Of a stretch of 64,000 nucleotides of DNA, positions 1 to 5,280 are shown one piece after another. The position numbers were made by a program, and so were the translations under genes. The notes under the pieces were generated by a model. It worked only from the letters and a program-made list of their open reading frames with translations, did not search any database and was not told the origin of the DNA. Each line of letters begins with the position of its first letter. Position 1 is the stretch's first letter. Source of the DNA: Lachnospiraceae bacterium A4 (GTDB lineage Bacteria; Bacillota; Clostridia; Lachnospirales; Lachnospiraceae); NCBI GenBank assembly GCA_000403215.2, contig KE159528.1, positions 111,293-175,292 on the forward strand. The letters are read 5' to 3'.

Positions 1-237
1 ACCCGCATCAATTTTTAAGCTCTTTATTTCTGTCAGCGAATAGTCTCTTACAAATCCCATACCATTTGTCGTTCGGTCTACGCGTTCATCATGAAGAACC
101 ACCAGCTCACCATCTCTCGTAAGCTGTATATCCAGCTCAATGCCTGTCAATCCCTGTAGCGATGCCGCCTTTTCAAATGCGAGCAGCGTATTTTCTGGAT
201 AACGCTGGCTGCATCCCCTGTGTGCCCAGAGTCTCAT
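1..237 (-). CDS. glycerophosphodiester phosphodiesterase, N-terminal part (cut by window edge)
   Basis: The first 79 codons of a minus-strand gene are present; the rest lies left of the window. The translation opens MRLWAHRGCSQRYPENT and continues with GIELDIQLTRDG and VVLHDERVDRTTNG. These are the HRG, ENT, E-x-D and HD elements of the metal-dependent TIM-barrel glycerophosphodiester phosphodiesterases, which hydrolyse deacylated phospholipid headgroups to glycerol-3-phosphate plus an alcohol. No signal peptide is visible, so a cytoplasmic form is likely. The ATG overlaps the stop of the upstream cytidylyltransferase/oxidoreductase gene in an ATGA, which indicates translational coupling. A link to glycerol-3-phosphate metabolism with the neighbouring TagD-like domain is inference. 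Confidence 0.88.
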   Translation of the reverse strand, partial: MRLWAHRGCSQRYPENTLLAFEKAASLQGLTGIELDIQLTRDGELVVLHDERVDRTTNGMGFVRDYSLTEIKSLKIDAG

Positions 238-1592
238 CTCACTGTCCCGCCTTTCCTGTACTTGCTTTCCTGTATTAAAAATTTCTCCATAATCTCTGCC
301 ATCGCGATCGACTCCCCCCGCGTCAATTTAAACACACTCTTGTCGTCCCCATTGATCATGTTCAGGAAATCGCGAATCTCATAGCGGAGTCCATCGCCAA
401 AAAAGCGTTCTGAATATTTATCCACCTGAGATGCATTTTCATAATGTACTTCAAAGTAGGTGGTTTTCCACCATGGCGCAGATGCTACAATATAGCCCTT
501 TGTACCTGCAATGAGCAGGCGTCCTTCAGATTTGACACCCAGCCCGCATGTAGCTGTCGCGATTCCTCTGGGATAACGAAACGAAACCTTTGTAAAAAGA
601 TCCAGTCCGTTGCTGTCATGAATCGCCTCAAACCGGACATCCTCGTATTTATTTCCAAAAAGCTTGATAATCGGAAGCATGCAGTAACTTCCAAGCTCCG
701 TAAGGCTGCCGCCGCACGCTGTATCTGTCAGTTCTCTCTTGTTCCTGTCCTCGAGCTTTGTAAAACAGGCGTCAATATATTGAACTGTTCCTATAATGCC
801 GCTGCACGCGATGCCAAGTAATTTTTCAAAGCCCGGGCAATATGCTGTCTTAATTCCCTCAAAAAGCACCAGATTTTGCTGTTTTGCATAGTCAAAAAGC
901 TCTTCCGAGTGGCTCTTTTGCAACACCATGGGTTTTTCGCACAGAACATGCTTCCCATGCTGTAGGGATAATTTCACATAATCATAATGTGTTTGATGCG
1001 GCGACGCCACATAAACAGAATCTATTCCTTTAAAAAATGTTTCAATATCATTAAAAAAATCAATCTCCCAAACTTTCGCAAACCGCTCCGCGCTCTCCCA
1101 GTTCGGATTATAAACCCGCTGCACATCAATGCCACTCACCTGCTTTGATTCCGGCACAAACCGATTTGCAATTCTTCCGGTTCCGATGATGCCTACTTTT
1201 TGAATATGCCTGTTCTGCTCGCGCAGCATGGTACTTGATATATTTTTCGTTCTTTCCAGATAGATTACTTGACAATAATCTGAGATGTAATCAAATGCCC
1301 CCATCCAGTCTGAACCGATTGCAAAGATATCAATGTGATATTTCTGCACATCACTGATTTTCTGCCCTACTGTTTCCTCTATAATCACTTCGTCAGCAAA
1401 TCCTGACTTTCTAACATTTTCAATTCGTGTCATAAGGGAGTCCACTACATTGAGTTTTCCCCGCTCCATATCATACTTCTCTGTCGTCACCCCGACGATG
1501 AGATAATCCCCTAATTCTTTCGCCCTCTTGAGTAAACGGTAATGCCCTTCATGAAAGAGGTCAAATGTCCCATATGTAATTACTTTTGTCAT
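234..1592 (-). CDS. fusion of TagD-like cytidylyltransferase and Gfo/Idh/MocA oxidoreductase
   Basis: The 452-residue protein has two domains. Residues 1-130 form a small nucleotidyltransferase domain with the HxGH motif (TYGTFDLFHEGH) and a downstream ISSTMLR, the signature of glycerol-3-phosphate/ethanolamine-phosphate type cytidylyltransferases. From about residue 132 a Rossmann fold begins (GIIGTGRIANRF), followed by the CEKP dinucleotide-binding element typical of Gfo/Idh/MocA NAD(P)-dependent sugar oxidoreductases. A single polypeptide would therefore activate a phospho-polyol with CTP and oxidise or reduce a sugar or polyol, probably for a cell-surface polymer. The start has an AAAGAGGT ribosome binding site. 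The gene is coupled by a 4-bp overlap to the glycerophosphodiesterase. Substrates cannot be read from sequence. Confidence 0.85.
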   Translation of the reverse strand: MTKVITYGTFDLFHEGHYRLLKRAKELGDYLIVGVTTEKYDMERGKLNVVDSLMTRIENVRKSGFADEVIIEETVGQKISDVQKYHIDIFAIGSDWMGAFDYISDYCQVIYLERTKNISSTMLREQNRHIQKVGIIGTGRIANRFVPESKQVSGIDVQRVYNPNWESAERFAKVWEIDFFNDIETFFKGIDSVYVASPHQTHYDYVKLSLQHGKHVLCEKPMVLQKSHSEELFDYAKQQNLVLFEGIKTAYCPGFEKLLGIACSGIIGTVQYIDACFTKLEDRNKRELTDTACGGSLTELGSYCMLPIIKLFGNKYEDVRFEAIHDSNGLDLFTKVSFRYPRGIATATCGLGVKSEGRLLIAGTKGYIVASAPWWKTTYFEVHYENASQVDKYSERFFGDGLRYEIRDFLNMINGDDKSVFKLTRGESIAMAEIMEKFLIQESKYRKGGTVR

Positions 1593-1689
1593 AATACCTC
1601 TTTCCTGCTAAAATCAATATTATTTCACTCCACCCATTCTTAAACTTGTCAAGAAGAATGCAGCCTTTTAAAATTATCATAAGGATTAT

Positions 1690-1905
1690 CGGAACGTTTT
1701 CGTCTGTGATGCTTCTGGTCTTTCACCACAAGCATGCACTTCGCTCCGCGTAAGCCGCGGTCCTGGCATACCCGAAAACAGGTCCATGACATCTGCATGT
1801 AAGGATGCCCGTTTAGCTAATGCCGACTTTTTGCCTTTGGAACTGTTAACAAATAGCTGTTGACAATTCATTGTGATAAGCTATTTGTTAACAGTTCCAT
1901 ATGTC
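1690..1905 (-). ncRNA. structured non-coding region downstream of the tnpB-like gene (candidate omega/reRNA)
   Basis: This stretch lies directly 3' of the TnpB-like gene on the same strand, where TnpB systems encode their guide RNA scaffold. Several stems can be read. One at 1706-1739 has paired GTG/CAC, ATGCTT/AAGCAT and TGGT/ACCA segments closed by a 5-nt loop. One at 1746-1760 pairs CCGCG with CGCGG. A 20-bp perfect inverted repeat lies at 1839-1898. A 61-codon ORF across it has no recognisable product and no good ribosome binding site. If it is an omegaRNA, the guide would begin just past 1706, reading toward lower coordinates. Transcription and boundaries are inferred, not shown. Confidence 0.45.
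1839..1898. repeat. 20-bp perfect inverted repeat with 20-nt loop
   Basis: GGAACTGTTAACAAATAGCT at 1839-1858 is exactly reverse-complementary to 1879-1898. The 20-nt loop can itself pair ACAAT with ATTGT. No T-run follows on either strand, so it is not an ordinary rho-independent terminator. Its place next to the tnpB-like gene suggests an element-end hairpin or RNA scaffold part. Confidence 0.9.
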
Positions 1906-1922
1906 AAATGTACGTTGCTGGG

Positions 1923-1960
1923 ATCCGATATTGGTAAAACCATCACATGATGGTTTATTC
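1923..1960. repeat. short palindrome near the 3' end of the tnpB-like gene
   Basis: AAACCATCA and TGATGGTTT are separated by two bases just downstream of the tnpB-like stop codon. This gives a 9-bp hairpin. Its role is unknown; it may belong to the same folded 3' RNA or mark an element end. Confidence 0.5.
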
Positions 1961-1975
1961 GCAGTTCCATACACT

Positions 1976-3322
1976 TCAACCATTATTATTTTTATTGTAT
2001 TTTATTTTGATATTCCGGGCTGAATTTAGCGGTATCGTTGTCTGGATACCACAGTTTTCACATAAAAAATCTGTTTTTTGCCGTTTTCCTTCTGCGCCGC
2101 AATACGAGCATATGCTGCCCGTTCCCTTGGCGTTGATTGTGTCTAACTCTATGGAATTGATGAGGCATTTGTATGCAAGCCTCTCCCGGATATATCCCCC
2201 AAAACTTCTTGCAAGCCTTCTGTTCACTGTTTTGGAGTAATGTGCCGTCTTATTTCTTGTGACAGGTTTTGTGATAACAATTTTTCTTGGTTTTTCCTCG
2301 CGAAACATTCTATTTATCTCTGAGTTGATATAGGTTGCTGTTCTCAGCCGTTCCCGTTCCTTCTGCCTGTCATATTTTGACTTGCCAAGATTATTGACTT
2401 CGATATTTTCAGCTTTTTGCAGATTTCCGCACGCAGCGTTCTTTTGATAGGTCGCATACATTTTGCTGCGCTCTCTATTTTTTCTGGCAAGTCGTTCTGT
2501 CTCAGGACTGACTAGTTCAGCCAACGCCTTTCCATAGACTGCTCCGCTGGATAAGGTAAACATATCCTGATATCCGATGTAGATATAAAGGGTGTTTTGG
2601 TAGTCGTCGTGCCGCTTAATCTTTGTCTCAGTTGGAACGGCAAGTGCAACATTATTTTCTCTGATCTGCACTTGAATCTGCCTGTCAAATGTGCGTTCAT
2701 CTTTGAGCGGTATCGCTATCCGTTTTCTAGGCACTCTGCACACAATGCGCATCGCGCCGTCTCTGTAAGAATAGCCATTTGGAGAGATGCGAAAGGAATC
2801 TACTGTATCTGAGCTAGGTTGTGTCAAATATTTTCTTGTCAGCCGTCGTAATAAATTGTTTAAGCGATTCACATCAACGTCTAAATCCTTTACCCGTTTT
2901 GGCAGCTCATATTCCTGATACGTTAAAACAGCCGCATACGCACTGTTTACTTTTAGTATCGTTCTTAGATATTGTCTGTCATCGGCACTCAGATTTTCAT
3001 TTGCTGTGATAAGCGCTCTAAGTTTATTTTTGACAATTCCCCAACTTCCCTTGATGTCTGTGACGGCGTCTGCGATGGCAAGTTCATAGTACACAGCCGG
3101 AAGCTTCAGTCGTTCCCGCAGTCCGCAGTAGCGCATCTCGTTCAGTATACTGTACACCGGCGTCAGTCTGTCCAGATTTTTGACCCCGGAATATCTTCTG
3201 TAGACATCATTCTTGACCTTGCAATAATCTGTGGCAATCCCTCTTAGAAACTCCATAGTCTCCTCTGGCAGAGGGTCACTGTACTGCCAGATTGTCTTGG
3301 TCACTGTACTGCCTGTAGACAT
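1976..3322 (-). CDS. TnpB-family protein lacking the RuvC catalytic residues
   Basis: The 448-residue protein matches the C-terminal layout of IS200/IS605-type TnpB (OrfB). The RuvC-I segment reads TLYIYIGYQDMFTLSSG where active TnpB has a GIDLG-type motif, so the catalytic Asp is Tyr (about residue 248). The RuvC-II segment reads KIVITKP instead of IVxEDL, so Glu is Thr (about 351). The final motif reads TTIPLNSARNI instead of HDRDxNAAxNI, so the Asp is gone. The zinc ribbon is intact (CSYC, CENC at about 405-424). ATG 3322 is preferred because GGAGG sits five bases upstream. No TnpA is adjacent. The fold is kept while nuclease chemistry is lost, as in TldR-type RNA-guided repressors; simple decay seems less likely because the frame is fully open. 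Confidence 0.8.
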   Translation of the reverse strand: MSTGSTVTKTIWQYSDPLPEETMEFLRGIATDYCKVKNDVYRRYSGVKNLDRLTPVYSILNEMRYCGLRERLKLPAVYYELAIADAVTDIKGSWGIVKNKLRALITANENLSADDRQYLRTILKVNSAYAAVLTYQEYELPKRVKDLDVDVNRLNNLLRRLTRKYLTQPSSDTVDSFRISPNGYSYRDGAMRIVCRVPRKRIAIPLKDERTFDRQIQVQIRENNVALAVPTETKIKRHDDYQNTLYIYIGYQDMFTLSSGAVYGKALAELVSPETERLARKNRERSKMYATYQKNAACGNLQKAENIEVNNLGKSKYDRQKERERLRTATYINSEINRMFREEKPRKIVITKPVTRNKTAHYSKTVNRRLARSFGGYIRERLAYKCLINSIELDTINAKGTGSICSYCGAEGKRQKTDFLCENCGIQTTIPLNSARNIKIKYNKNNNG

Positions 3323-3403
3323 GCTTTCCTCCAAACCCTGTACAACTGAAATGGGTTCAACTTAGTCTGATATATTAATATTACAGTAGTCTGATTTTTT
3401 CTT

Positions 3404-3425
3404 AGATTTCTGTAATCTACGACAA
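3404..3425 (+). repeat. left copy of 22-bp inverted repeat in the palindromic element
   Basis: This copy begins AGATTTCTG and is exactly reverse-complementary to 3756-3777. Outside it the two arms continue with partial pairing to the TA-flanked ends. Confidence 0.9.
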
Positions 3426-3755
3426 AAAAGGTAACACATTATCAAGTCAGAAAATTTTATTTCTACTGAAGTCTAACATGACCTCTCACTAATCAAAAAT
3501 CGTTTTTTAATTGTCTTACTAATAGCTCTGTTTTAATTTTTTAGTAATATATTGTAATATACATTTTGGTTATTGACCCAGAATCTGACCGGTAAGATTG
3601 TGAGTTACTTTCCAAAATACTTATATGAGTACACTACAACTAAATTTAAACAGAGCTAGTATTAATACATTTATAAATCGATTTTTGAATTGGAATAAAA
3701 CGGATTCTAGTTAAGCCGTAATATAATGTCCTGACTGTGTAACGTGATAATTTTA

Positions 3756-3777
3756 TTGTCGTAGATTACAGAAATCT
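3756..3777 (-). repeat. right copy of 22-bp inverted repeat in the palindromic element
   Basis: Exact reverse complement of 3404-3425, with no length offset between the two halves of the palindrome. Confidence 0.9.
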
Positions 3778-3912
3778 GCGATAAAATTCGACTATAAATG
3801 GTCAAATATCTGATACCAAGATGCAAATAAAAACTTCCAATACAAGATAATTACATATCTTATACTGAAAGTTCACAATATCTAAAATCATTTCCTATTC
3901 AATTTCCAGCCT

Positions 3913-5256
3913 TCAGACGACTGCCTCCACGATGGTCTTATCCCCAATCGTTATTGTTTTTATGCCAATTGCTTTCGCCTTGTTAAAATTAAAGCTAAGC
4001 ATATACCCTTTGTTTTGACGGAAGTATTCAAGATACGCTGCAAGCTGCTGTTCACCCCGTCTGTTGTACTCATCTCCGTACCAAATTTTCAATTCTACGA
4101 TAAATTATTTTCTATCCTGCTTCGCTTTTTTACTCATGATACTCGCAAGCTCTTCTTCGGACAAAAAAAGATTATACAGCCGCATCTCAAAGATTCGGTT
4201 CGCCACTTGAAGGCTGCCGTGATCGTTGACAGTGTATCCAAACATGCATGCAAGATCTATAATTTTGTGATCTGGATTGTATGCGATCTGCTCTCCAAGA
4301 AACAACATGGCATATAACATATCTTTCAAAGCTGGGTACTCGCTGATATGACGCATCATACTGCCAAATAGCGGGATATTTTGATTTAATAACGCTTTGA
4401 CCGCCTCCAAAATACCTGCGCCCGTCCATGCGTCCACAACCTCCTCATCAAGATATTTACAGATTGCTGATACTAAATATGGATAACCTGATGTATATGC
4501 ATAAATATCCTGCGCCACAGATGTCAAATCCATCCCTGTGTGATGTTCTGCCTCATACTCCGTCAACATCGTTCTAATCTGTTCTGCTGAGAAGCTCATC
4601 TCAATTTTAAAATCAGCAGCAATATTCCAAGGACTGTTGTATTGCTGCACTTCATCTGGATGTATCTTTAATTTTAAATTTTTGATATCATAAACACCGG
4701 CAAGAATTACTGAATGGAAAATCGGACTCTTTTTTCGGTTGAGATAGCACTCTCTTAACTTGGACAAAAAATCAACAAAAACCCGATTATTTGTTGCACT
4801 GTCCACCTCATCTATCATTAAAACAATCGGCTTTTTTGCAGTTTCACAAAGCCGGCTTAGACAGCGGAACATCTTTCCTATAGAAATTCTATCCTGTTCT
4901 TTTAAAGACAATAAACTCTCAAAAGCCTGCGTGTCAAGCTCTCCCATAAATGCTTTTTCTTTGACAAATATGTCATTCATATACTCAATAAAGGAGACCA
5001 CAAACGATGGTTCATCTGCAAAATCTATATCACTTATAGCCTGAAAATCCATAGAAATCACAATATAACAATCCTTTAAATACTCCGCCAGTGCTCTGAG
5101 TGTTGTTGTCTTGCCATACTGTCTGCCCCTGTTGATGACAAAGTATTTCCCTCTGTCTACATAAAGAGTCTTGATTTTTTCAAGTCTCTCCTCCAGTCGA
5201 ACCATAAAGTGTTCTTCTGGCTCACATTGCCCCTCTGTGTTGAAATACCTTCGCAT
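3913..5256 (-). pseudogene. AAA-ATPase-like/PD-(D/E)XK nuclease gene with in-frame stop and internal deletion
   Basis: Residues 1-383 form an intact AAA-ATPase-like domain. It has a P-loop variant GRQYGKTTTL, Walker B VLMIDEVDSATN and a C-terminal winged region. The frame stops at TAA 4105-4107 after KKAKQDRK. Reading on in the same frame to TGA 3913-3915 gives FIVELKIWYG, then RRGEQQLAAYLEYF and GYMLSFNF. That is the end of the PD-(D/E)XK domain normally fused to these ATPases (AAA-ATPase_like plus PDDEXK_9). Roughly 90 residues, including the first catalytic acid, are missing between the two parts. The ATPase may still be made, but the nuclease is lost. ATG 5256 is chosen because GGAGG lies just before it. 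Confidence 0.8.
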
Positions 5257-5280
5257 CCTGCCTCCTTCCATATTATTTCA

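Follow-up and report, generated by a model that had tools for sequence, protein, structure and literature searches.

According to PMC13418256, TnpB-like nuclease-dead repressors (TldRs) silence flagellin paralogues, and TnpB has been inactivated independently multiple times. The csrA-associated TldRs of gut bacteria (Oscillibacter and Flavonifractor) are described there as having guides inside fliC reading frames, with hin and ~120-base-pair inversions carrying a promoter upstream of them, and one Oscillibacter strain has four cross-targeting TldR loci. In the present study, we analysed a 64,000-nucleotide (nt) stretch of Lachnospiraceae bacterium A4 (contig KE159528.1, positions 111,293 to 175,292; hereafter the window), which encodes a nuclease-dead TnpB-like protein (dTnpB). 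The results suggested that dTnpB is, with good probability, a domesticated repressor that uses an RNA guide and stands at the head of phase-variable operons for surface glycans, and the csrA-associated flagellin TldRs with invertible promoters appear to be its closest known parallel. Both systems combine a nuclease-dead TnpB with an adjacent guide RNA, and in both the guides match coding sequence inside alternative copies of the gene that accompanies the TnpB. They differ in that the target is flagellin and the partner csrA there, whereas the predicted target here is a glycan-operon gene; the present loci also have two kinds of recombinase, segments of 0.1-1.5 kb and hosts in the family Lachnospiraceae. 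The only CsrA match of the A4 genome was on another contig. The fliC-associated prophage TldR, as outlined in PMC13418256, is similar in that a dead TnpB, encoded next to an isoform gene of its own, uses an RNA guide to repress the resident paralogue and so swaps a surface structure, but it is prophage-borne, targets a promoter and acts on flagellin.

Cas12m (type V-M) is likewise a RuvC-fold effector that silences without cleaving double-stranded DNA, but its guides are CRISPR-encoded and its role is immunity. The phase-variable capsule loci of Bacteroides combine invertible promoters with an operon-head regulator that shuts rival loci (UpxY/UpxZ), using a protein anti-terminator/inhibitor pair instead of an RNA guide. 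A word search of the main text of PMC13418256 returned no mention of glyco-, capsul- or polysaccharide wording. In the open-licence PMC literature, PMC13418256 was the only paper found to deal with both TldR and TnpB. There was no report joining TnpB with polysaccharide and an invertible promoter, or TnpB with glycosyltransferase and nuclease-dead; the combination of TnpB, phase variation and polysaccharide returned only papers unrelated by title, and there was nothing on capsule and inversion in Lachnospiraceae. A TldR-like dTnpB with a glycan-operon target would differ from the known flagellin TldRs.

The gene in question is as follows.

1976..3322, minus strand: nuclease-dead TnpB-like protein (dTnpB), with Y248, T351 and T429 at the RuvC acid positions and an intact four-cysteine (C4) zinc ribbon

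The frame starts with ATG at 3322, stops at 1976-1978 on the minus strand and encodes 448 amino acids (452 from an alternative TTG at 3334). The initial annotation had described the 448-codon frame and the zinc ribbon as intact, and both descriptions proved correct, with four of four zinc-ribbon cysteines kept. The C-terminal domain matched Pfam Cas12f1-like_TNB (E=2.2e-9, over the Pfam cut-off), while the match to NCBIfam guided_TnpB (E=1.3e-12, 47.8 bits) was under the cut-off of 100; the protein is therefore divergent. To align the catalytic residues, we used L086, an intact TnpB of a related genome, as the reference. The alignment placed Y248 at the RuvC-I Asp, T351 at the RuvC-II Glu, T429 at the RuvC-III Asp and P431 at the next Asp, in agreement with the Tyr, Thr and Pro/Thr replacements that had been noticed at the outset. 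In IS200/IS605 elements, the RNA is encoded at the 3' end of the tnpB gene. dTnpB shares the fold class and the zinc ribbon with IS200/IS605 TnpB (ISDra2, ISFba1), but in the alignment it lacks the intact RuvC triad of the active proteins, it has no TnpA nearby, and its putative guide matches host coding DNA. The absence of an adjacent TnpA, also claimed initially, was borne out in the A4 genome, where the search for Y1 transposases covered all three dTnpB copies: 13 matches were found, none of them on the window contig or on contig C23, and the sole match on contig C1 was ~160 kb away from the dTnpB copy there.

To separate a conserved lineage from a lone decayed copy, the initial annotation had proposed a search for homologues. 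The three dTnpB copies of the A4 genome have 100, 69 and 57% identity, and matches were observed in 28 of the 60 genomes searched (A4 included), 26 of these being among the 36 same-genus genomes. We compared 51 homologous frames, the window included, which came from the genome search and from 13 loci of genome_contigs after removal of duplicates; L086, an ordinary TnpB, was excluded. The frames split into clade A, which contains the window (39 frames), and the sister clades B and C (12 frames, 32-40% identity). The RuvC-I acid was missing in 51/51 frames (Y/H, rarely P/F, in clade A; S/A in clades B and C), as was the RuvC-II acid. The RuvC-III acid was found in 0/38 clade A frames that reach the site and was kept in 5/11 such frames of clades B and C, one further frame being cut short in each group. 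The four zinc cysteines were conserved in all 49 frames that extend to them. The ratio of nonsynonymous to synonymous substitution rates (dN/dS) was 0.04-0.26 in 45 of 47 dTnpB pairs above 78% identity, with dS above 1 in many and the remaining two pairs saturated. In addition, a gene of the family that we call c1 adjoined dTnpB on the same strand in 46/51 loci. Because the RuvC-I and RuvC-II acids are absent throughout the relatives and dN/dS is low, these results showed a conserved dTnpB lineage under purifying selection rather than a lone decayed copy. The annotation had also considered that intact acids might occupy the RuvC pocket from other positions. An acid was present in at least 95% of the 51 frames at E62, D115, D240, E335, E343 and the column of T395, none of which is a catalytic site, and clade A had no conserved acid at the catalytic positions. 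The AlphaFold2 model built from ten sequences was of modest quality (predicted local distance difference test score 61, predicted template modelling score 0.42), too poor for a judgement on the pocket geometry; its top PDB matches were structures of TnpB, Cas12f and Fanzor, for which the TM-scores were low (0.2-0.4).

Downstream of dTnpB, we found a structured noncoding region with the following features.

1673..1981, minus strand: omega-RNA-like structured RNA, directly after dTnpB with a slight overlap with the gene end; covariance-model core 1674-1837
1826..1911, no strand assigned: variable long hairpin within the RNA, 42-nt arms, 81%
1673..1687, minus strand: putative guide AATCCTTATGATAAT; an invariant T stands just before it at 1688

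Fourteen loci, including the window, aligned over ~250-300 nt of noncoding sequence with invariant blocks immediately 3' of dTnpB; in the window, the 5' block begins with GGTT at 1981. At the position of the long hairpin, several other loci carried different yet self-complementary sequence when compared by eye. The 3' domain was analysed in 37 clade A loci (L040, near-identical to L039, was omitted) and contained 16 consensus pairs, 8 of which had changed on both sides. Paired cells amounted to 97.6% (85.2% in shuffled alignments), and the covariation score was 0.489 versus 0.228 in shuffled alignments, a value that 0/500 shuffles reached; slid versions gave at most 0.141. The RNA ends with a last hairpin, the invariant T, an AAT-NNN-TATGAT-like sequence and then variable sequence. 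A covariance model scored the window RNA, one of its source sequences, at 118 bits. Among 68 sources the model had 10 matches, all at dTnpB loci and nine of them distinct, since L088 repeats the window locus; L204, L205, L209 and L211 were matched from outside the training set. None of the 35 dTnpB-free c1 loci included gave a match (the 36th, L170, was left aside), most clade B and C loci were missed, and among 200 family genomes under strict filters only the A4 genome was matched. A search of Rfam with window positions 1580-2100 gave no match above gathering, only hairpin look-alikes on the other strand. These results suggested that the region is a conserved, covarying guide-RNA-like scaffold that would be transcribed. 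A long variable guide past the conserved end, in the style of mobile TnpB, was also considered and rejected, several loci having self-complementary sequence or a ribosome-binding site there, although no genome-wide search with that stretch was made. The clade B RNAs (L075, L076, L025, L077, L227, L229) end in a CCAAT(A/G)T(G/A)CCTTATT-like sequence that is common also to other genera, and the clade C RNAs (L078-L083, L085) end in (G/A)TTCC(C/T/A)TAT(T/G)TATCC.

The structured RNA could also be read as a regulatory leader at the 5' end of the glycan operon, with dTnpB as an RNA-binding autoregulator that controls attenuation or translation in cis and has no action on DNA in trans. The RNA does lie on the same strand between dTnpB and the following operon gene, in L045 it ends ~20 nt ahead of the c1 start with its ribosome-binding site, and self-complementary sequence was seen by eye past the conserved end in several loci. 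We nevertheless consider this explanation unlikely: in the nine loci with c1 upstream of dTnpB, the RNA cannot be its leader, and the 15-nt end follows c1 copies at other genomic positions, not the adjacent c1.

The evidence for the latter came from a comparison of the putative guides with c1 genes. In the A4 genome, AATCCTTATGATAA occurred exactly at five places: in each of the three RNAs, in c1 at the L045 locus and in a CotH-like gene. With one mismatch it occurred at 12 more, including a further c1 on contig C12. Ten further genomes contained 11 exact sites. Six were in the RNAs; the other five were in c1 paralogues not located near dTnpB, each at the HNPYDN codons, and the backwards control gave 0. 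The matching site lies ~200 codons into c1 behind an ACAT-like motif, and the candidate target can be written ACAT-AATCC(A/T)TATGATAAT. For a systematic comparison, c1 was searched in 38 genomes, of which 33 had a match and five had none (G030 had an adjacent c1 only). We fetched 42 stretches with full-length c1 copies that no known dTnpB adjoined. Six of them turned out to carry dTnpB after all and were reclassified as adjacent, giving 36 non-adjacent and 51 adjacent c1 genes; four partial matches (G016, G022 twice, G060) were left out. The guide-target counts omit eight clade A loci from genome_contigs (L035, L036, L037, L039, L040, L041, L043, L044), which belong to genomes without a c1 search.

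Between 11 and 15 of the 15 guide positions matched the non-adjacent c1 site, and the match ran mismatch-free for 16-17 nt in some genomes. For 35 guides from 23 genomes, the best non-adjacent c1 matched 13.17/15 on average, compared with 11.07/15 for the own adjacent c1; among 28 guide pairs, the non-adjacent c1 scored higher in 26, tied in 2 and was never lower (Wilcoxon p=7e-6). A match of at least 14/15 with wobble, together with CAT, was reached by 19/35 guides in a non-adjacent c1 and by 1/28 in the adjacent c1. Guides also fitted the c1 of their own genome better than that of others (13.43 versus 13.04; 21 genomes, permuted genomes p=0.00095). The initial choice of target, the adjacent c1, was rejected: in 35 loci the guide matched it at 7-14/15, no better than elsewhere in the gene (10.8 versus 10.4), and the match did not track the locus (permuted p=0.72). 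A target in the upstream promoter region was rejected as well, since no 8-10-mer was enriched there except coding matches in c1.

The target codons themselves were constrained. In the 36 non-adjacent c1 genes, the site was the most codon-conserved of 39 windows (CAT.94, AAT.97, CCA.62, TAT.94, GAT.94, AAT.89; gene mean.59), whereas the 51 adjacent genes had no conservation peak, with.67 for His,.70 for Asn,.82 for Tyr and.53 for Asp. Guide and target classes varied together, CC guides occurring with CC targets in 11/11 genomes and GC guides with GC targets in 7/10 (p=0.001; this excludes two genomes with guides outside both classes, as well as targets L170, L175 and L188). The CAT-AATNNNTATGATAAT site was present in 22/23 genomes with a clade A dTnpB and in 2/9 genomes in which none was found (p=8e-5), both of the latter being incomplete assemblies (74 and 86%). 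An A at -4 of the site was found in 26/36 non-adjacent versus 16/51 adjacent c1 (p=2e-4) and the T of CAT in 34/36 versus 34/51 (p=0.003), which makes the ACAT flank a candidate transposon-adjacent motif (TAM). In two genomes outside pattern discovery, guides fitted 14/15 (G060) and 17/18 (G061), and two more G061 guides fitted 13/15 and 11/15. For clade B, a c1 paralogue in the same-genus genomes G009, G025 and G019 bears ATATACCTTATT at LVYIPYYS codons, a suggestive and possible second target site.

A match this short invites the objection that it reflects chance or codon bias in the conserved protein motif HNPYDN, and that dTnpB binds some other DNA. The guide has just 15 nt with some variable positions, adjacent c1 genes fit at 7-14/15, and the CotH-like gene of the A4 genome contains an exact 14-mer. 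The codon freezing, however, is restricted to c1 away from dTnpB, the presence or absence of the site across genomes follows clade A dTnpB, the guide and target classes covary, and the genomes outside pattern discovery fit, though with the two weaker G061 guides. On these grounds, we regard a coincidental match as very improbable.

Upstream of dTnpB, the region has the layout of an invertible segment.

3404..3424, plus strand: left arm of a 21-nt perfect inverted repeat, a proposed recombinase site, with the same layout in relatives
3757..3777, minus strand: right arm of this 21-nt repeat, separated from the left arm by 332 nt
3387..3794, no strand assigned: whole proposed invertible block, an imperfect palindrome with 204-nt arms, 71%

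The 332-nt segment stops ~80 nt short of the dTnpB start, and 0/100 shuffles gave two repeat matches. Upstream sequence of at least 300 nt was available for 39 loci, ten others being omitted because theirs was shorter. Of the 39, 24 had inverted repeats above all five shuffles each; one of these, L081, has its repeat 1.5 kb off and may be unrelated, and in L046 the top repeat score came from an assembly duplication, though 27-nt repeats were also present. Three layouts were distinguished: gene-free segments of ~300 nt, 1.4-kb segments around a tyrosine recombinase, and segments of 100-160 nt, 7/9 of them beside a serine recombinase. Pfam confirmed one tyrosine and one serine recombinase, genes of the recombinase clusters lay within ~3 kb upstream of 23/51 dTnpB genes, and in L061 the enclosed recombinase was in the opposite orientation to its relatives. 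A promoter scan of the segments found 10 against 7.7 expected, not above shuffles. Collectively, the layout resembles that of phase-variable promoters, in which the segment would invert. A role of dTnpB as an accessory or directing factor for these recombinases, with no repressor function, would suit their frequent proximity, the repeats and the constancy of dTnpB while recombinase types and repeats vary, but it is hard to credit when the guide is unlike the repeats by eye, its 8-10-mers within 1.5 kb upstream recur only as c1 coding matches, and the frozen site lies within c1. In L046 (5669-8530, contig C23 of the A4 genome), a tyrosine recombinase occurs twice, head to head; the two copies form a perfect inverted repeat of 1431 nt and are separated by an N-run, as if the assembly had joined the two orientations of a single invertible segment.

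We then considered what the associated operons encode. The c1 gene was downstream within ~1.3 kb of dTnpB in 37 loci (after small open reading frames in L056 and L058) and directly upstream in nine. Five loci had no adjacent c1, namely the window, L047, L057, L044 and L084, with L047 and L044 at contig ends. c1 is similar to CDP-glycerol glycerophosphotransferases, one of three tested proteins matching PF04464 at E=2.3e-4, below the cut-off; an NCBIfam scan of c1 gave nothing meaningful. Its neighbours include cytidylyltransferase/oxidoreductase fusions (Pfam) and, by inspection of their sequences, GDPD-, LicD-, sugar-nucleotide- and glycosyltransferase-like genes. The window has such a fusion as well.

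234..1592, minus strand: cytidylyltransferase and Gfo/Idh oxidoreductase (Pfam), the first protein gene of the operon downstream of dTnpB

This operon extends beyond the window as far as a true PF04464 glycerophosphotransferase gene (L088), and the genes between the two were named by reading. Within it, a transposase-like gene, also named by reading, lies at L088:5753-7498. Among 12 larger non-adjacent c1 loci, 10 had downstream genes of clusters that are also present in dTnpB-linked operons. Two comparisons, with gene names by reading, concerned the same chromosomal surroundings: next to an RNase J-like gene, dTnpB and the RNA precede c1 in G032, whereas c1 stands alone in G013 and G018; next to c25/c48/c49 genes, recombinase, dTnpB and c1 occur together in G020 and G028, whereas c1 stands alone in G017. 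These comparisons indicated that one chromosomal site can hold either state.

Taken together, the system displays each TldR feature that we sought in the sequence: a RuvC domain predicted to be inactive in a TnpB homologue; selective retention with linkage to a non-transposon gene and no TnpA near the A4 copies; a putative RNA scaffold encoded directly downstream; and a computed guide match to a host gene beside a candidate TAM. It also has inverted repeats flanking the upstream region, as in phase-variable promoters, and we named it TldR-like. The suggestion in the initial annotation of a TldR-like group or a conserved dead TnpB lineage in Lachnospiraceae gained support, the guide RNA, target, glycan operon and inverted repeats being in agreement with it. 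In the mechanism that we propose, inversion would place a promoter behind dTnpB and switch its own operon on. dTnpB would bind its RNA, and the complex would bind the template strand within a rival c1 without cutting and block RNA polymerase. Having coding-strand sequence, the guide would anneal to the template strand within the gene. The most likely action would be an elongation roadblock. For dead Cas12a, the template strand is reportedly the effective strand. The own c1 would escape through mismatches and, in a third of cases, an altered ACAT motif. Because of this self/non-self logic and the identity of the operons, switching between surface glycans may be expected, the cell exchanging one surface glycan for another rather than producing both. 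We are somewhat inclined to a joint reading of mutual exclusion, in which several phase-variable loci per genome would each carry a dTnpB with a near-identical guide directed at one codon-frozen c1 site, which the default glycan operon has in common with other c1 copies, those of sister-clade loci included, and in which one inversion would turn on one polymer and turn off the others by a roadblock like that of CRISPR interference. If true, RNA-guided transcription control by a domesticated TnpB would reach beyond flagellin to surface glycans in gut commensals and would be joined with DNA inversion in one circuit. Phase variation would then have a direct, testable tie to exclusive surface-polymer expression, with a bearing on gut ecology, phage resistance and immune recognition, and codon freezing at the target would offer a route to finding such systems.

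Several observations weigh against the repressor reading. The own locus of the window has no c1, and the non-adjacent c1 of G013 and G018 is followed by an ATPase and then by genes that are not clearly glycan genes. No clear inverted repeat was found in 15/39 loci, including those with c1 upstream, and 2/51 frames (L057, L084) are interrupted by a stop. Allowing G-U wobble shrinks the gap in guide match to 13.5 versus 12.3, and all guide-target tests ignore the relatedness of the genomes. Four non-adjacent c1 genes (L176, L193, L195, L207) are at contig starts, where an upstream dTnpB could be hidden. The best non-adjacent target in the A4 genome carries 1 mismatch in 15, the adjacent c1 of L045 fits equally well (14/15) with CAC for CAT, and G007 has no consensus site. 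The match to the adjacent c1 is not striking in itself, although a negative result there is expected under a model in which the non-adjacent c1 is the target. Clades B and C have other RNA ends. With up to 1 mismatch, the clade C end had 7 sites in five genomes, six in RNAs and one, with 1 mismatch, in a G026 coding region; the clade B site of 11-12 nt, found in 3 genomes, is only possible, and with up to 3 mismatches the clade B end had 16 sites in three genomes (3 RNAs and 13 three-mismatch sites) against 11 in the backwards control.

Beyond the same genus, dTnpB matches were found in 8/200 genomes of the wider family, A4 among them, and six dTnpB-like frames from four other genera likewise lacked the RuvC-I and RuvC-II acids. 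Among 13 named relatives, one was 'uncultured Acetatifactor sp.' and the rest were 'uncultured Lachnospiraceae' or Clostridia. No relative of dTnpB was found in the viral contigs searched, phage records gave 25-26% identity, and plasmid records reached 23-31% identity, all but one covering <60% of the query. The plasmid matches H6-H21 and H23 were Acinetobacter proteins, many annotated as TnpB-related accessory, with ~28-31% identity to the central part of dTnpB. In the window itself, an AAA-ATPase-like gene (PF14516/PF09820) lies at 4105-5271, upstream of the proposed invertible block, and its cluster c14 relatives follow c1 in G013 and G018.
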